From contig JAAZNC010000008.1 of assembly GCA_012798455.1 (NCBI GenBank), forward strand, positions 26,345 through 90,344: a stretch of DNA of 64,000 nucleotides, read 5' to 3'. Of this stretch, positions 48,473-57,531 are shown piece after piece. Below the pieces are notes generated by a model. The model was not told the DNA's origin. It saw only the letters and a program-made list of their open reading frames with translations, and searched no databases. Positions within the stretch are counted from its first letter, which is position 1. Each line of letters opens with the position of its first letter. Source of the DNA: Chloroflexota bacterium. Its GTDB lineage: Bacteria > Chloroflexota > Anaerolineae > Anaerolineales > Anaerolineaceae. Made by a program: the position numbers and the translations under genes.

Positions 48473-49405
48473 ATGATTGAAAAGAAAAAGCCGGATGTCA
48501 TTACACCGCAGGAACTGTATCAGTCACGTCGTAAATTCTTGAAGACAAGTCTCACATATTCTTCGGCTGCCGCCTTGCTGGCAGCTTGTCAGCCTATTGC
48601 TCCAACCCCCACTCCCCAGACAGGTACGTCATCTGCTTTAAGCGACGAGTTAGGAGATCTCACTACCTCCGAAGAAGATATCGCCGGATTTACCAACTAC
48701 TACGAATTTTCCTCCAGCAAGAAACAACCTACCGAACTGGCAGCAGATTTTGTCACTCAACCATGGACTGTTCAGATCGGCGGACTGGTAAAGAAACCAC
48801 AAGAAATTCTGGTCACTGATCTAAAACAGCAATTCAACATGATTGACCGCATCTACCGCATGCGCTGTGTGGAAGCCTGGTCGATGGTGATCCCGTGGAG
48901 CGGCATCCTACTCAAAGATCTGCTGGATGCCGTGCAACCCACCAGCGCTGCCAAATACATCCGTTTTGAGGGAACTTTCGATCCCGATCAGATGCCTGGA
49001 CAGAATCACTCATCCTATCCCTGGCCTTATGTGGAAGGACTTCGTCTGGATGAAGCCACGCACGATTTGACGCTCCTGGCAACCGGCATCTATGGCAAAG
49101 ACCTGACCTCTCAAAATGGCGCGCCTATCCGTCTGGTGGTACCCTGGAAATATGGCTTCAAATCTATTAAAGCCATCAAAAAGATCGACTTGGTCGAGGA
49201 GATGCCCACCTCATTCTGGATGGCACTCTCTTCCCAGGAATACGGTTTTTATGCCAATGTGAACCCCAACGTTCCCCATCCACGCTGGTCACAAGCTTCT
49301 GAGCAGCGCATTGGTGAATCGGGACGCCGGGATACTCTGCTTTTCAACGGCTATGATGAAGTGGCAGATCTCTATACTGGTATGGATCTCAGTGTGAATT
49401 TCTAA
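48473..49405 (+). CDS. msrP: Protein-methionine-sulfoxide reductase catalytic subunit MsrP (YedY)
   Basis: SRRKFLKTS Tat motif, ITPQELYQSRRKFL, MRCVEAWSMVIPWSGILLKDLLD (Mo-ligand Cys), WKYGFKSIKAI. Confidence 0.92.
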   Translation: MIEKKKPDVITPQELYQSRRKFLKTSLTYSSAAALLAACQPIAPTPTPQTGTSSALSDELGDLTTSEEDIAGFTNYYEFSSSKKQPTELAADFVTQPWTVQIGGLVKKPQEILVTDLKQQFNMIDRIYRMRCVEAWSMVIPWSGILLKDLLDAVQPTSAAKYIRFEGTFDPDQMPGQNHSSYPWPYVEGLRLDEATHDLTLLATGIYGKDLTSQNGAPIRLVVPWKYGFKSIKAIKKIDLVEEMPTSFWMALSSQEYGFYANVNPNVPHPRWSQASEQRIGESGRRDTLLFNGYDEVADLYTGMDLSVNF

Positions 49406-50040
49406 TGGAAAAGCGGTTCAGTAAAGTCCAAAACATCACGTTATTGATCTCGGTCATTCCGACAGGGGTGTTTCTGTTCAACTACACGCAGAACGCCTAT
49501 GATCCCTATCCCACTTTATTCCTGACTCAATTCTCTGCCAAGACCGCCTTACTTTTCCTGTTGGTTTCTCTAACCTGCACCCCACTGCGAAATATCCTGG
49601 GGATGAGTGCTTGGCTCAAAGTTAGGAAAACCAGTGGTTTGGCTGCTTTTTATTATGCCCTGTTGCACACATTCACCTTCATCGTGTTGGATTATCAATT
49701 AAACCCGAACTGGCTCATCCCCGAATTCAGGGATAAACCTTATTTGCTGTTGGGTTTGGCAGCGCTGGTTCTTTTGATCCCGCTGGCACTCACCTCTGGA
49801 GAACGGATTCAGGCACGCCTAGGAAAAATATGGAAACGCATCCATCGCCTGGTATATCTCATAGGTCTGTTAATCCTGGCACACCAGTACTTCGCCATCA
49901 AAGGAGACAAGAGTAGTGCTGTTCTTTACATCATTGTTTATGGAATATTGATGATGTTGCGGCTGCCGTTCATCAGGGATACCCTCAAGATCAAGCCCTG
50001 TACGATCTGCCAGACCATTAACCAATGGCTGATTTCCTGA
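49405..50040 (+). CDS. msrQ: Heme-binding subunit MsrQ (YedZ)
   Basis: Multi-TM; LTCTPLRNILGMSAWLKVRKTSGLAAFYYALLHTFTF, WKRIHRLVYLIGLLILAHQYFAIK; directly after msrP. Confidence 0.9.
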   Translation: MEKRFSKVQNITLLISVIPTGVFLFNYTQNAYDPYPTLFLTQFSAKTALLFLLVSLTCTPLRNILGMSAWLKVRKTSGLAAFYYALLHTFTFIVLDYQLNPNWLIPEFRDKPYLLLGLAALVLLIPLALTSGERIQARLGKIWKRIHRLVYLIGLLILAHQYFAIKGDKSSAVLYIIVYGILMMLRLPFIRDTLKIKPCTICQTINQWLIS

Positions 50041-50051
50041 TAGGATAAAGG

Positions 50052-52157
50052 GTGATGGACACTATTTCCTTCAACACTGCCCAACAACAACTGCTTGATT
50101 TACCCATCCCAATTCACATTGCACTGGATGGACCTTTTAAAAGCGGTAAAACTACCGTTGCGGTTGCCCGTATGATGCAGATCAGCGCTCATTGCAACCC
50201 ATTCCAACGCTTGCTGGTGCTGGTACCCCAATTATCGCTGGCAGAGAAATATCGCCAAGCGGTGCGGGATGCACAATTCCCGGCAGGCAATCCTCCCACC
50301 ATTACCACACTGGCTGGCTTATCGCGCCAGTTCATCCAGCTTTACTGGCCATTTATCCAGGGAAGTGCCGGTTTCAGCTCCATCGGTTCCCGCCCTACTT
50401 TTCTCAATATGGAAACCGCTCAGTATTTCATGGAACAGGTCTGCCAGCCTTTCCTTGATAAAAAATATTTCCTTGAGATCCGCATCGATCGTGCCCGTCT
50501 TTTCAGCCAGATTCTGGATACCATGAATAAGGCTGCACTGGTAGGTTATGCACTGGAAGAGACCGCTCTGCGCTTGAAAGCTGCCTGGACGGGTGAAAAC
50601 ATCCGCGAGAAGCATTACGAACAATCCCAGGAATGCGCCCTGGCTTTTCGAGCTTTCTGTTTGCAAAACAATGTGCTGGATTATTCCCTGCAGGTTGAGC
50701 TGTTCCGGCATTTTATCCTGCAGGATGTTTCGCTCCAAAAAGAATTTTTCGTGCCCTATGCTTTTTTGATCGCAGATAATCTGGAAGAAGACGTACCGAT
50801 TCTGCATGACTTGATCCTTAGTTTGAACGAACATATTCCATCCATGCTATTCATCAACGATCAGCATGCCGGCTATCGCTCTTTTCTGGGAGCAGACGCC
50901 ACCAGCGCCGCACGGCTGGCAACCATCTGCCAACAGCATTTCACTTTCAGCGAACAATTCAATATGGCAGAGGATGTAAAAGCATTCAATATGTCTTTAA
51001 TTCGCTGCATTCAAAGAAAAGAAACCCACCAGTTCCCAACCGCTGCCCAAGCCGCTTACACACTGCAGAATCTGCCCTTCTATCCCGATATGGTAGATGC
51101 GGTCTGCCAGACCATTCTTCAGCTTGTCAAAGATCAGCACGAATCACCTGGTCAAATAGCGGTTTTATCCCCTTATCTACCGGACTCCTTGAAATTCGCG
51201 TTGACGCAAAAATTGAGCGCTATGGGTATACCCTTTATCTCCACCCGTCCTTCGCGCACTCTGGCAGACGAATCCATTACCCGTACCATGTTGGTTTTTG
51301 CCAAAGCAGCTCACCCGAACTGGAATCTGTCCATTCAAGTTGAGGAACTGCGTCTCGCCATCATGACCATTTTCCCAAAATGTGATATCCTGCGCGCTGC
51401 GCTGCTGGCAGAAAATTCACTAACAGATGGAAATCGATTACTTCCCTTCACGGATATCCCGGCATTCACGCGCGAACGCATCTCCCATCAGATCGGTAAT
51501 CAATATAATGAATTGATCCAATGGATCGAAGACTATCGACATAAACAAGAACCCTTGCCGTTGGATATATTTCTTTCGCAGCTATTCGGCGAAAAACTTG
51601 CGCAACCCGGTTTCGGATTGCACGAGGATGTAGACAAAGCTGCTGTGTTGAACAACCTGATCCGCTCCATGCATGATTTTCGCACCACTTTCACTGCACT
51701 GGCTGAAACACAGCAGGTGGATGTCAATCAAATGTATATGCAGACCCTGCAAAACGGGCTGCTGCCTTCCCGCCACCCGCTGTGGAATGACGAGATGGAT
51801 GCGGTGTTAATCTCCCCCGCCTTCACTTTCTTGATGAAAAATAGGAGTGTGAAATACCAATTCTGGCTGGATATCGGATCCATGGGGTGGTGGGAACGTC
51901 TTGACCAACCCCTCACTCATCCCCATGTGCTCAACCGCAACTGGCAAATGGAAAAACGTTGGACAGACACAGAGGAATATCAAGCCAATCAGGCTGCACT
52001 GGCAAGATTGGTAAAGGGTTTGTTGGAGCGTTGTGAAAACCATATTTACCTATATGCGGTTGGATTAAATCAAGCCGGTATCAACCAGAGCAGCCCCTTA
52101 CTGAGCGCCATGCAGCTCTTCTTAAAGCGCATGCGAGGAGCAAATAACCATGCCTGA
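50052..52157 (+). CDS. SF1-helicase-fold protein, AddB-like, with Walker A but degenerate Walker B
   Basis: HIALDGPFKSGKTTVAVARMM Walker A; FLIADNLEEDVPILHDLI instead of DEAQD; operon with UvrD helicase and nuclease. Confidence 0.7.
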   Translation: MMDTISFNTAQQQLLDLPIPIHIALDGPFKSGKTTVAVARMMQISAHCNPFQRLLVLVPQLSLAEKYRQAVRDAQFPAGNPPTITTLAGLSRQFIQLYWPFIQGSAGFSSIGSRPTFLNMETAQYFMEQVCQPFLDKKYFLEIRIDRARLFSQILDTMNKAALVGYALEETALRLKAAWTGENIREKHYEQSQECALAFRAFCLQNNVLDYSLQVELFRHFILQDVSLQKEFFVPYAFLIADNLEEDVPILHDLILSLNEHIPSMLFINDQHAGYRSFLGADATSAARLATICQQHFTFSEQFNMAEDVKAFNMSLIRCIQRKETHQFPTAAQAAYTLQNLPFYPDMVDAVCQTILQLVKDQHESPGQIAVLSPYLPDSLKFALTQKLSAMGIPFISTRPSRTLADESITRTMLVFAKAAHPNWNLSIQVEELRLAIMTIFPKCDILRAALLAENSLTDGNRLLPFTDIPAFTRERISHQIGNQYNELIQWIEDYRHKQEPLPLDIFLSQLFGEKLAQPGFGLHEDVDKAAVLNNLIRSMHDFRTTFTALAETQQVDVNQMYMQTLQNGLLPSRHPLWNDEMDAVLISPAFTFLMKNRSVKYQFWLDIGSMGWWERLDQPLTHPHVLNRNWQMEKRWTDTEEYQANQAALARLVKGLLERCENHIYLYAVGLNQAGINQSSPLLSAMQLFLKRMRGANNHA

Positions 52158-54372
52158 ATTCATTCCTCGCCCTGCCCAGGCAGCCATTCTGCGTTATAGC
52201 CATGGCAAGATGGGCATTGCTGCTGTCCCCGGCAGCGGAAAAACGCATACCCTTTCCTACCTTGCAGCTGACCTGATCGCCTCCGACCGCATTAAAGAAG
52301 ACCAGGAAGTGCTAATCGTGACGCTGGTGAATTCGGCTGTGCAGAATTTTTCCAAGCGCATCGCACTTTTTATGCGCCAGACAGGTCTGCTGGAAAATAT
52401 CGGGTATCGCGTGCGCACCCTGCATGGATTGGCGCACGATATCGTGCGCGAAAGACCTGATCTGGCCGGGTTATCCAATAATTTCCAAATTCTGGATGAA
52501 CGAGCCAGTAATGACCTGCTGGACCAGATTGTCGGCACCTGGCAGCGCAATAACCTCGATTTTCTAATCCGGTACACCACTCCTGAGTCCCGCGATAACA
52601 TACAATATTTAAGCAATAAATGGAAACAGATATTGCTTTCCATGGCATCCGCTTTTATTCAGCAAGCCAAGGATTTGGAGTTGAGCCCACAGCACATCCA
52701 ATCTGAAATGGTGCATACTGGCATCGATCAGGAACTACTACGCTTTGGGATAGAAGTCTATCAAGATTACCAAAATGCTTTGAGTTATCAAGCTGCCATC
52801 GATTTTCAAGACCTCATCCGGCTAGCTTACTCCATTTTGAAATTAGATGCAGATTACCTGCAGCGTCTGCAGCAACGTTGGCCATATATCCTCGAGGATG
52901 AAGCCCAGGATTCATCTGCCCTGCAGGAGAAGATCCTGCGCCTGTTATGTGGGAAGAAAGGCAATTGGGTGCGGGTCGGTGATCCGAATCAGGCTATTTA
53001 TGAAACCTTCACCACCGCTGACCCGAAATACCTATTGCACTTTCTGCACGAAAAAGGAGTGCAATCTTATGACTTGCCCAACTCCGGCAGGTCAACATAC
53101 AGCATTATCCATCTGGCAAACCACCTCATCGAATGGAATCAAAAAGAACCTGCTCCAGAGTTATTAAAGGCACTTGTTCCACCTTTCATCCAACCTACCG
53201 GGCAGGATGATCCACAACCCAATCCCCCGGATATACCGGAACATATCTACCTGTATGATAAAGCCCTCTCTCCCGAAAAAGAAGAGGATATGGTCGTACA
53301 GTCGGTAGTGCGCTGGCTAGCAGAAAATCCACGACAGACTGTGGCAATCCTGGTCACCCGCAACGACAAAGGCGCCAGTCTCGTGCAGAAGTTGAAAAAC
53401 AAGAAAGTAAAAACAGTGGAGCTTCTACAGACCAGTTTTGCTACGCGCAGAATAGCAAAAATATTATCTGATCTGATGTATTTTTTTGCAGAACCACAAA
53501 GCGCTAAAAAACTGACTGCCGCTTTCCAGAGCCTGTATGAGGAGCGTTTTGAGGATGCGGAAGAGAAAAAACTCTTCCGGGCTTTTTGCTCCAGACTGAA
53601 AAAGGAAACGCTGGTAGAAAATCTGCTTTTCCATCCCCCTGAGAAGAATGAACAATCATTACTGGAGCCGCTTCATTCCACTTTCCGAGAAATTTTTCAA
53701 CAGTTTGCCACCTTCGTGCACAATAATCAAAATGCCACCCTCTTGCCCATTCATGAATTCATCCTGACCCTCTCGGTGCAATTATTCACTGAAGCTCATG
53801 AACTGGCACTTACTTATAAATTAGCGGAAATGATGGAAAGGGCTGCGGTCGCCAACCCTGTTTTAACGTTGAAGGATGTAGCAGTCGAACTGGATCGTAT
53901 CTACAGCAACCGCATCCGCATCAACGGCTTTTCGGATGAAGAATTGGAATTTGACCCAGACCAGCATCGCGGAGAAGTGGTGGTTTCCACCATCCATAAA
54001 GCCAAGGGATTGGAGTGGGACCGTGTCTATCTAGTCTCGGTGAACAATTACGATTTCCCTACCAACCAACCTTACGACCAGTATATTTCAGAACGTTATT
54101 TCATTCGCGACCGTCTCAACCTGGAAGCGGAAATGCTAGCCTCTTTGAAGAACCTGTCAAAAGGAACGCCTTATCAAGAAGGAGATCCCACCTTACAGGC
54201 ACGCATCAGCTACAGCGCTGAAAGACTACGGTTATTGTATGTGGGCATCACACGTGCCCGCCGTGAATTGGTGATGACATGGAATGAAGGAAAATTCAAT
54301 AATTGTGTGATGGCAATCCCCTTTGTGGAATTGACCGCCTTTTGGGAGCAATATCATGCCGCACCTGACTGA
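52150..54372 (+). CDS. UvrD/Rep-family SF1 DNA helicase
   Basis: MGIAAVPGSGKTHTLSYL, YILEDEAQDSSALQEKIL, VVVSTIHKAKGLEWDRVYLVSV, LRLLYVGITRARREL. Confidence 0.93.
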   Translation: MPEFIPRPAQAAILRYSHGKMGIAAVPGSGKTHTLSYLAADLIASDRIKEDQEVLIVTLVNSAVQNFSKRIALFMRQTGLLENIGYRVRTLHGLAHDIVRERPDLAGLSNNFQILDERASNDLLDQIVGTWQRNNLDFLIRYTTPESRDNIQYLSNKWKQILLSMASAFIQQAKDLELSPQHIQSEMVHTGIDQELLRFGIEVYQDYQNALSYQAAIDFQDLIRLAYSILKLDADYLQRLQQRWPYILEDEAQDSSALQEKILRLLCGKKGNWVRVGDPNQAIYETFTTADPKYLLHFLHEKGVQSYDLPNSGRSTYSIIHLANHLIEWNQKEPAPELLKALVPPFIQPTGQDDPQPNPPDIPEHIYLYDKALSPEKEEDMVVQSVVRWLAENPRQTVAILVTRNDKGASLVQKLKNKKVKTVELLQTSFATRRIAKILSDLMYFFAEPQSAKKLTAAFQSLYEERFEDAEEKKLFRAFCSRLKKETLVENLLFHPPEKNEQSLLEPLHSTFREIFQQFATFVHNNQNATLLPIHEFILTLSVQLFTEAHELALTYKLAEMMERAAVANPVLTLKDVAVELDRIYSNRIRINGFSDEELEFDPDQHRGEVVVSTIHKAKGLEWDRVYLVSVNNYDFPTNQPYDQYISERYFIRDRLNLEAEMLASLKNLSKGTPYQEGDPTLQARISYSAERLRLLYVGITRARRELVMTWNEGKFNNCVMAIPFVELTAFWEQYHAAPD

Positions 54373-55195
54373 TTTTCGCTTCAGTGCACAATCACTGCAA
54401 GATTATGTGGAATGTCCGCGACGCTTTCTGCTGCGCTACATCCAGAAGCTGGATTGGCCCGCCGAACAGAGCAACCCTTATCTGGCTTTCGAGCAATATC
54501 GCTATAAAGGAGAATTGTTTCATATTTGTGTTGATCAGTATTTCCACAACATTGATCCTGTTTTGATTGAACAACAGATCCACAATGATGATCTGCGCAC
54601 CTGGTGGCAACATTTCCTGGAATTCATTCAGGAACAGAATTTTCTTCACACCGTTTCAGAGATCCTTTTTCAAGCCAGTCTGGGAGACCATCTTCTGATA
54701 GCCAAATTTGATCTGCTGGCAGTTACTGCCGATCACAACGTAATCATTTTCGATTGGAAAACCATTGCTGGGGATCGCAAGCCTACCCATCACATCCTGG
54801 TTGAAAAGATGCAAACTCTTATTTATCCATATATCCTATGCCGGGCTGGGTTATCTGTGAATGGAGAGCAACTTGCCCATCCAACGAATGTGACATTGCA
54901 ATATTGGTTCCCGCAATATCCGCATGAACCCGAACCTTTCAAATATTCATCTGTACAAATGCAACAAGATCAAACACAATTACGCGGATTGATGGAGGAA
55001 ATAGAGATCAAGACAATGGGTGATTTCCTTATGACCGAAGACGAAAAGCGCTGCCGTTTTTGTGTTTACCGTTCCTACTGCGGACGGGGTGATGTGGCAG
55101 GGAATGTATTGAATGAGGATCAGGAAACCGCACTGAATTTGGATCTGGACAATCTGGACCTGAATTTTGAGAATATCGAGGAAATTGTATACTGA
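54356..55195 (+). CDS. PD-(D/E)XK nuclease family protein with predicted 4Fe-4S cluster
   Basis: YVECPRRFLLRYIQ, GELFHICVDQYF, LIAKFDLLAVTADHNVIIFDWKT catalytic core, CRFCVYRSYCGRG. Confidence 0.87.
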   Translation: MPHLTDFRFSAQSLQDYVECPRRFLLRYIQKLDWPAEQSNPYLAFEQYRYKGELFHICVDQYFHNIDPVLIEQQIHNDDLRTWWQHFLEFIQEQNFLHTVSEILFQASLGDHLLIAKFDLLAVTADHNVIIFDWKTIAGDRKPTHHILVEKMQTLIYPYILCRAGLSVNGEQLAHPTNVTLQYWFPQYPHEPEPFKYSSVQMQQDQTQLRGLMEEIEIKTMGDFLMTEDEKRCRFCVYRSYCGRGDVAGNVLNEDQETALNLDLDNLDLNFENIEEIVY

Positions 55196-55197
55196 AC

Positions 55198-57531
55198 ATG
55201 CGCTGGATAACCCCCGAACCCGTTATTGTCCCTGATAGCCTGCGTGCTTATTATGAGCATTCCCCTTATCTAGCAGAAGCACTGGTGAGGAAAGGAATCA
55301 CTGATGCCGATCGAGCCATTCCCTTTCTGGATTATACCTGTTATCCTCCCACCAATCCATGCGAGTTGCCGGGGATAGAAGCAGCAACCCAGCGCCTCTT
55401 ACAAGCACTGTCAAAAAAAGAAAGGATCGGCATTTGGGGCGATTTTGATGTGGATGGACAGACCTCCACTGCACTGCTGGTCAGTTTCTTTCGAACCATT
55501 CAACTCCCTGTGCAATACCATATCCCTATTCGGGAGGAAGAGTCCCATGGCATTCTCAAACAGCCCTTGGAACATTTTCTCAAGCAGGGAGTGGATGTGT
55601 TGGTTACCTGCGATACGGGCATCTCTGCTCATGAAGCGCTGGATTTTGCTACCCAACAGGGTGTAGATGTGATCATCACCGACCATCATACTCCACCCAA
55701 ACAATTGCCCTCCGTACTGGTTTCCATCAATCCTCATTTTGTTGATACTGAGCATGCTTTTCACAACTTGAGTGGTGTGGGGACTGCTTTTATTTTGACC
55801 CGTGCCATCGCTGCTGAATTGGATATGCTGGATGAATGGCAGGAATCAGTTTTGGATCTGGTTGCACTGGGCACCATCGCGGATGTTGCTCCTCTGCTTC
55901 ACGAAAACCGCTACATGGTGCAATATGGGCTTGATCTTCTACGTCGCCGCCCACGCCTAGCTATCCAAGAAATGTTGCGCACTGCCGATGTACCACTGGA
56001 TTCTGTGGATGAGCAAACCGTCAGTTTCATTCTCGCCCCGCGCATGAATGCCCGCGGGCGTCTGGGAGATGCTAATCCTATGGTGGAATTTTTACTAACG
56101 GATGACCTAACACTTGCCCGGCGTACTGCTGCCGAATTGGAAGGACTGAACAACCAGCGCAAGATGCTGGTCAACCAGGTATATCAGGCAGCCATTTCCC
56201 AAATTGAAAAAGATCCCGTTTTTGAAGAGAAAAGCATTATCATCCTGACTAATCCAACCTGGCCGGCAGGCATCTTAGGCATCGTTGCCAATCATTTGTG
56301 CGATACCTATGACAAACCAGCTATTTTATTGACTAAAGATCGCCACGGTATGTTAAAAGGTTCCGCCCGCTCTATCTCAGGCATCGATATCACGCAGCAA
56401 TTACAGGTACACAGCCACTTGCTGGTATCCTTCGGAGGACATGCCATGGCAGCCGGTATGGCGCTGCACCAGCAACAATTCGACTCGTTTGTGCAGCAAC
56501 TAAACAGATCCATAGCATCCATCGTCGGGGTTGGTGAAATAGAAGCAACTTTGCCTATTGATGCTTATCTGCCGCTGGCTGGCGTGGATGAATCTTTTAT
56601 GCAATCCATAGAAAAATTAGCACCTTATGGAGCTGGCAATCCTGCTCCCACCTTCCTGGCGGAACATCTGCACATCGCTGGTTCCTGCTATCTCGATCGT
56701 GATAAAGTGCACCGTTCTATTCAAGTTGCATCTGCCGAGGGGCAACGCTATGAAGTGAAATGGTGGCACGCCTTTGATACTCCCCTGCCCTCTGGTGAGA
56801 TCGATCTAGCATATACGGTCAGGCGCAGCACTTTCCGAAGTGAAAGCAGTCTGGAATTGGGCTGGGTGGATGCACGCAAACGCCAACCTGAATCTATCAC
56901 CATCGCAAAGAATAAACCAGATACTGTCATCCTAGATTGCCGTTATGTAACCAACAGTCTATCTGACCTGCTGCAATTCTGCCGCACCGAAAAGGCCCTC
57001 TGTTGGGGTGAACACATCACAATTGACCAGATCCAGGTGCACAATCGACTTCAGTTGCAAGAGTGCCCCGTGCTGGTATTCTTGCATATGCCCCCACATG
57101 CTATAATCTTGCGATCCATTCTGGCGACAGTCCAACCCCACACTATGGCATTATTCAACCTGCCACAAGATGCCATGGACCCACGTATTTTTCTGCAAAC
57201 ATTGATGGGTATGCTCAAATATGCGCTACGTGAAAAACAGGGCATCATCTCACTGGAACAATATGCTGCAATGCTAGGGGTACCGTCTTCCATGATCGAA
57301 ATTGGTTTGAACCTGCTTCAGGTTGAAGGGCATATCCAGGTGGAAGCCAGGAGTAAAGAGAAACGCACTATTACCACCAGCAGCTCTCCTGCTGATATGA
57401 GTGCCCGGGCACACTGGCAAGCACAGCTGTTGCAATCTTTCAGTGAGATGGTTGCCTTCCAGCGTTTTTTATTGCGCCTGCCACCCGATAAGATCCTGCA
57501 AGATTATGGTACAACGCAAACGAATAATTAA
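55198..57531 (+). CDS. recJ: RecJ-family single-stranded-DNA exonuclease with C-terminal extension
   Basis: IGIWGDFDVDGQTSTALL, DVIITDHHTPP, INPHF, GVGTAF, ILAPRMNARGRLGDA, SFGGHAMAAGMAL. Confidence 0.92.
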   Translation: MRWITPEPVIVPDSLRAYYEHSPYLAEALVRKGITDADRAIPFLDYTCYPPTNPCELPGIEAATQRLLQALSKKERIGIWGDFDVDGQTSTALLVSFFRTIQLPVQYHIPIREEESHGILKQPLEHFLKQGVDVLVTCDTGISAHEALDFATQQGVDVIITDHHTPPKQLPSVLVSINPHFVDTEHAFHNLSGVGTAFILTRAIAAELDMLDEWQESVLDLVALGTIADVAPLLHENRYMVQYGLDLLRRRPRLAIQEMLRTADVPLDSVDEQTVSFILAPRMNARGRLGDANPMVEFLLTDDLTLARRTAAELEGLNNQRKMLVNQVYQAAISQIEKDPVFEEKSIIILTNPTWPAGILGIVANHLCDTYDKPAILLTKDRHGMLKGSARSISGIDITQQLQVHSHLLVSFGGHAMAAGMALHQQQFDSFVQQLNRSIASIVGVGEIEATLPIDAYLPLAGVDESFMQSIEKLAPYGAGNPAPTFLAEHLHIAGSCYLDRDKVHRSIQVASAEGQRYEVKWWHAFDTPLPSGEIDLAYTVRRSTFRSESSLELGWVDARKRQPESITIAKNKPDTVILDCRYVTNSLSDLLQFCRTEKALCWGEHITIDQIQVHNRLQLQECPVLVFLHMPPHAIILRSILATVQPHTMALFNLPQDAMDPRIFLQTLMGMLKYALREKQGIISLEQYAAMLGVPSSMIEIGLNLLQVEGHIQVEARSKEKRTITTSSSPADMSARAHWQAQLLQSFSEMVAFQRFLLRLPPDKILQDYGTTQTNN

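Follow-up and report, generated by a model that had tools for sequence, protein, structure and literature searches.

A four-gene set of a large Chloroflexota class, inherited and transferred as a unit, that probably trims broken DNA ends where AddAB and RecBCD are often missing

Recombinational repair begins in most bacteria with RecBCD, AddAB or AdnAB, all of which fuse helicase and nuclease. In a 64,000-nucleotide stretch of an Anaerolineaceae genome (the window, by which we mean the whole stretch analysed), four co-directional open reading frames (ORFs) occupy positions 50052-57531 of the + strand, and we judge it reasonably likely that they form a chromosomal DNA end-resection module which works like AddAB or AdnAB but is divided differently and has a RecJ built in. 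Gene 1 (50052..52157) encodes a 701-amino-acid (aa) superfamily 1A (SF1A) pseudo-helicase partner with an AddB-like degenerate active site and no nuclease domain; gene 2 (52150..54372) an intact, UvrD-like SF1A helicase of 740 aa with no C-terminal nuclease; gene 3 (54356..55195) a stand-alone PD-(D/E)XK (PDDEXK_1) nuclease of 279 aa with a predicted Fe-S cluster; and gene 4 (55198..57531) a long, cassette-specific RecJ of 777 aa. Genes 1 and 2 overlap by 8 nucleotides (nt), genes 2 and 3 by 17 nt, and a 2-nt gap separates genes 3 and 4, exactly as an earlier, sequence-only reading of this DNA had described. The source is a 2.68 Mb metagenome-assembled genome (MAG) in 117 contigs, approximately 95.6% complete, from the family Anaerolineaceae, class Anaerolineae, phylum Chloroflexota, and its closest named relative at the locus is a Pelolinea sp. 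MAG. We view the module as a resection machine because its parts, its co-inheritance and its housekeeping setting fit such a role; from these we infer the complex and its activity.

The sequence-only reading had proposed a synteny check in related genomes, and the genes are indeed conserved together: in 29 of 32 loci from relatives genes 1, 2 and 3 stand together, usually followed by RecJ, and this is repeated in most of the GTDB loci that have enough sequence. Such synteny in dozens of genomes excludes chance as the cause of the gene arrangement. Among 61 relatives, gene 1 is present in 40 and gene 2 in 42, with neither in 19; the two genomes that have gene 2 and no gene 1 carry contig-end fragments in broken assemblies. 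A long RecJ occurs in 34 of the 42 genomes with the module and in only 1 of the 19 others (a genome that is 64% complete), and all four genes lie in order on a plasmid, pSR56, so RecJ is part of the set, in line with the first proposal. Fisher values are 7e-14 for gene 1 with gene 2 and 2e-8 for long RecJ with the module, figures in which independence is overstated because the genomes are related. Across 38 cassettes the pairwise distance matrices of the four proteins correlate with one another at 0.82-0.94, uncorrected for the species tree.

Gene 1 is, as judged from its motifs and modelled fold, a degenerate SF1A helicase in the manner of AddB, with Walker A and the motif II Asp retained and the catalytic Glu lost. 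Its Walker A, GPFKSGKTT (residues 27-35; 50130..50156), has Gly, Lys and Thr nearly invariant in an alignment of 68 homologues, Lys33 being kept in 66 of them. Its degenerate motif II, LIADNLEED (residues 239-247; 50766..50792), retains Asp242, and the catalytic Glu is replaced by Asn243; over the same alignment the motif reads D-N-x-E-E-D, with the Asp kept in 64 of 68 and N243, E245 and E246 invariant, and the canonical AddB proteins of relatives have D-G-F-D at this position. An AlphaFold model built from the 68-sequence alignment (predicted local distance difference test, pLDDT, 92.2; predicted template modelling score, pTM, 0.89) has a complete SF1A helicase fold, and Foldseek finds full-length matches to UvrD (E 4e-20), AddB (3e-17), AdnB (TM 0.68, the best TM-score), Rep and PcrA; RecC is not among the best 50 structural matches. 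Among the profiles tried with hhalign, local AddB ranks first (E 6e-9), followed by AddA (2e-7) and gene 2 (2.5e-5). The degenerate site and this AddB-first ranking indicate a motor-dead helicase partner and no recent duplicate of gene 2, in agreement with the initial description of an AddB-like inactive helicase. AddB itself joins a motor-dead SF1 fold to a fused C-terminal Fe-S nuclease; gene 1 has the fold and lacks the nuclease. No Pfam or NCBIfam family, the AddB model included, matched gene 1, which is at present unannotated in public families. Its start may be the ATG at 50055 instead of the GTG at 50052.

Gene 2 has all SF1A motifs intact and invariant in 58 homologues, including Walker A AVPGSGKTH (52222..52248) and motif II DEAQD (residues 250-254; 52897..52911). 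It matches the Pfam families UvrD-helicase (E 1e-48) and UvrD_C (E 1e-24) and no nuclease family, so it does not have the C-terminal PD-(D/E)XK domain that is fused to the SF1A helicase in AddA. In NCBIfam it scores 149 bits with PcrA versus 73 with AddA (for which the equivalog cut-off is 708), far under every equivalog cut-off. Gene 2 proteins group by themselves (support 100/100), on a very long stem and apart from both AddA and UvrD/Rep/PcrA, in a tree that also included local AddA, the PcrA of this genome and, from E. coli, UvrD, Rep and RecB; deep placement is uncertain because E. coli RecB is a long branch. By these sequence comparisons gene 2 belongs to a distinct line of SF1A helicases, outside both AddA and UvrD/PcrA; the earlier designation of a complete UvrD helicase is right as to its intact domains. 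A separate observation is that the best score of gene 2 is to a phage helicase family, phrog_1967 (215 bits), above any NCBIfam helicase model. We considered and rejected a viral origin, as no close homologue of gene 2, and none of gene 1, was found in phages or viral contigs.

Gene 3 matches PDDEXK_1 (PF12705) at E 3e-23 and has all the catalytic residues, among them D-W-K at residues 133-135 (54752..54760). Its predicted Fe-S ligands are Cys20 (54413..54415) and the C-x2-C-x5-C of Cys233, 236 and 242 (55052..55081), and C20, C233, C236, C242, H56, E102, D119, K135, Q153 and Y157 are invariant among homologues. The PD-(D/E)XK core with four Cys is what defines an AddB- or Cas4-type Fe-S nuclease of PF12705, and to this extent the comparison originally drawn with the AddB nuclease domain stands; the closest solved structures, however, are not AddB but are of AdnA or Cas4 type, with the AdnA nuclease domain best by Foldseek, accompanied by Argonaute-associated Cas4, Exo5 and Dna2. 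These results bear on whether the set is a true descendant of AddAB, in which AddA and AddB underwent fission, AddA lost its nuclease and that of AddB became a gene of its own. Such a history would account for AddB as the best profile of gene 1 (above) and for the fact that gene 3 can also be aligned to the C-terminal nuclease domain of local AddB, but the long-stemmed gene 2 clade does not join AddA and scores higher with PcrA, gene 3 has its best solved matches elsewhere, and canonical AddAB coexists with the module in several genomes, so that we consider this descent decidedly improbable. For the same reasons the 'split AddAB' of the sequence-only reading cannot be called demonstrated. A second stand-alone PDDEXK_1 nuclease, of 275 aa, is encoded elsewhere in the window's genome (L002:1399-2226, G000:C115), with matches of similar length in several relatives.

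Whether canonical AddAB is absent from the window's genome was among the points raised at the outset, and profile searches detected none there, and no AddB; these searches recovered two UvrD-type helicases (PcrA and gene 2) and three PDDEXK_1 proteins, and RecO and SbcD are present. The sequence-only reading had named two outcomes that would speak against it, namely a complete separate AddAB or RecBCD together with four genes not conserved as a set, or a gene 1 unrelated to AddB and RecC, and we found neither. Adjacent canonical AddB-AddA genes occur in 11 of the 61 relatives (L148-L158, two pairs of which were checked against NCBIfam), patchily across families, which suggests repeated loss or gain of AddAB in the class. 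In the part of a phylum-wide sample that belongs to the class, counting AddB only above about 480 bits, 25 genomes have the module only, 6 have both, 2 have AddB only and 5 have neither. AddB-profile matches with small scores were set aside as most likely PcrA/UvrD-type proteins (the matches are N-terminal, in frames of about 750 aa).

Several observations weigh against the end-resection reading. Ten of the 11 relatives that have AddAB also have the module; there is no anticorrelation between the two, as AddAB is found in 10 of 42 genomes with the module versus 1 of 19 others; some relatives are without both, so the class can live without either; gene 2 does not fall with AddA in the tree; and family f12 has genes 3 and 4 at a distance from the linked position beside genes 1 and 2. 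From the ten relatives in which AddAB accompanies it, it follows that the module is not a strict replacement for AddAB, nor simply an AddAB cut up; it is often the sole machine of its kind in a genome, yet no strict AddAB substitute. The unlinked genes of f12 would also be expected if the operon were a coincidental gathering of unrelated repair genes. The f12 genomes nevertheless keep all four genes though scattered, as in single-contig G047 (in which length was the sole basis for assigning RecJ), and the complete set was transferred to a plasmid of a different phylum, so we regard a coincidental operon as highly improbable.

The resection module that we favor includes a RecJ of its own. Gene 4 has DHH, DHHA1 and RecJ OB domains with invariant active-site motifs (motif I, DFDVDG, at 55441..55458 and DHH at 55681..55689) and scores 497 bits with the RecJ equivalog (cut-off 397). 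Among relatives RecJ comes in two lengths: most genomes have one of about 565-620 aa, and the copy at the module has about 770-870 aa. The window's genome has both, a canonical 590-aa protein (C85) and the operon copy (C88). The long RecJs form a single clade (support 100/99) apart from the canonical ones, with the copies from Salinibacter and Fraserbacteria inside it. Thus gene 4 is a RecJ, as had been stated, but a dedicated paralogue and not the RecJ of the cell's RecFOR pathway. It can be aligned over its full length with a solved 757-aa Bacillota-type RecJ (PDB 8y30), including the C-terminal extension (56896..57528), so the domain itself is known; what is new is the RecJ duplication and its tie to the module, gene 4, unlike the Bacillota-type protein, being an additional RecJ in a genome that already has a canonical short one.

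In E. coli mismatch repair, UvrD removes the strand together with RecJ, ExoX or ExoI. The pairing of a UvrD-type helicase with RecJ, and a gene for a DEDDh exonuclease directly 5' of gene 1 in about 15 of 80 GTDB loci, could therefore also be read as nick-directed excision in mismatch or other single-strand repair, with gene 2 opening the duplex from a nick and RecJ (5'-3') plus gene 3 or DEDDh removing the strand. We think this unlikely, since a pseudo-helicase partner and a PD-(D/E)XK Fe-S nuclease are characteristic of enzymes that resect ends and not of excision at mismatches, gene 2 falls outside UvrD, a PcrA and a canonical RecJ are encoded elsewhere in the genome, and mutS and mutL were not recognised beside the module in neighbourhood clustering.

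If the set is instead an end-resection module, gene 2 would be its single motor, translocating 3'-to-5' on one strand and unwinding from a DNA end, as expected of its family. Gene 1 would accompany this motor, as AddB and RecC accompany theirs, and split or guide the second strand; it may have retained ATP binding and perhaps reads a regulatory signal. Gene 3 would supply in trans, and not as a fused C-terminal domain, the sole PD-(D/E)XK Fe-S nuclease, and gene 4 would degrade the 5'-ended strand as it is displaced, so that a 3' single strand remains for RecFOR to load with RecA. The likeness to AddAB (RexAB), a stable heteromer whose resection is regulated by Chi, lies in one SF1A motor with a motor-dead SF1A partner that retains Walker A, and in an Fe-S PD-(D/E)XK nuclease of the same family; in contrast to AddAB, the nuclease is a separate protein, there is one and not two, neither helicase is fused, RecJ is dedicated, gene 2 falls outside the AddA clade, and the module coexists with real AddAB in some genomes. 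Mycobacterial AdnAB provides the best Foldseek match of gene 3 (AdnA nuclease domain) and the best TM-score of gene 1 (AdnB), whereas in AdnA, as in AdnB, a helicase domain is joined to a nuclease domain and the module has three separate chains. RecBCD shares with it a motor-dead SF1 partner (the RecC-like role) and a single nuclease, but the module has no fused nuclease; no RecD (SF1B) is found among the operon genes, the remainder of the genome not having been searched for RecD. Tentatively, the set may add a fourth architecture to RecBCD, AddAB and AdnAB among the end-resection machines of bacteria, one made of a motor, a pseudo-helicase, an in-trans nuclease and an integral RecJ; the cassette of four genes would then have been present in the ancestor of much of the Anaerolineae, would be able to pass from phylum to phylum and would have arisen independently of AddAB. 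Our literature search, incomplete in its coverage, found no paper on the four-gene set. A whole class of common environmental bacteria seems to use a differently partitioned resection set with its own RecJ; the module would explain end resection in genomes without detectable AddAB, and its natural separation of motor, scaffold and nuclease offers a way to ask why a dead helicase is retained.

Gene 1 is found in 143 of 249 Anaerolineae genomes and in 108 of the 161 good ones, and, in the phylum sample, at full length in 31 of the 38 Anaerolineae and in 0 of about 263 other Chloroflexota; its profile also gives weak N-terminal matches throughout the phylum (E 1e-10 to 1e-3), which were set aside as other helicases with a Walker A. 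Cultured type strains with the module include Pelolinea submarina, Longilinea arvoryzae, Bellilinea caldifistulae, Ornatilinea apprima and Anaerolinea thermolimosa. Outside the class the cassette occurs in one Fraserbacteria MAG and on plasmid pSR56 of Salinibacter ruber (Rhodothermota), where all four genes keep their order, which indicates that they move as a unit; the Salinibacter genes nest inside Anaerolineae diversity, suggesting that the unit was transferred whole. A match on an Ilyobacter plasmid (19% identity) was rejected as a lone UvrD-domain protein without the cassette. On pSR56 a gene for a helix-turn-helix (HTH) and IrrE-like (Peptidase_M78) regulator lies just 5' of the transferred cassette (L177, 8059-9237), and the plasmid also has a type I restriction-modification set and BrnTA.

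That restriction-modification genes are present on the one plasmid found to carry the cassette, and that a PADLOC scan gives a clear GajB-model match for gene 2 and a weak one as the sole match of gene 1, raises the possibility of anti-phage or anti-plasmid defence by degradation of foreign linear DNA. The portion of Hudaiberdiev et al. 2017 (PMC5704561) that bears on this describes operons and fusions of UvrD with Cas4-like (PF12705) nucleases, such pairs being found in defence loci, and an unfused operon, mostly of Clostridiales, with a possible role in DNA repair. The module resembles the latter in that a UvrD-type helicase adjoins a stand-alone Cas4-like PF12705 nuclease, and differs, in a comparison by description only, in that the same portion mentions no pseudo-helicase partner or dedicated RecJ. 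We think a defence role quite unlikely, as the module is broadly and for the most part vertically present in one class and not patchy, its flanks across loci are housekeeping genes (YqgF, MltG, HemW, rpsF-ssb-rpsR), searches of phages and viral contigs gave no gene 1 homologue, and there is no partner gene of GajA type, the neighbouring genes in the window not resembling the GajA ATPase/TOPRIM nuclease that stands beside GajB in Gabija.

In the window the cassette is preceded 5' of gene 1 by a lipoprotein gene and a molybdopterin-oxidoreductase/ferric-reductase-like pair and followed 3' of gene 4 by an L,D-transpeptidase and a HemW-like gene. The MsrPQ-like pair just 5' of gene 1 (48473-50040) is in the same place in the window's genus and a few others and not there in other genera. 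Promoter and terminator scans gave signals near the shuffled background. The rpsF-ssb-rpsR cluster, and with it ssb, follows the long RecJ in 6-9 GTDB loci (L102, L073, L099, L110, L116, L141). In the window's genus we looked for a stand-alone copy of the DEDDh exonuclease and found none; where it is directly 5' of gene 1 (RNase_T, about 190 aa) the distance is at most about 40 nt, and genes near or directly 5' of gene 1 are seen at L102:9414-9983, L073:9412-9987 and about 19 further loci of other Anaerolineaceae.

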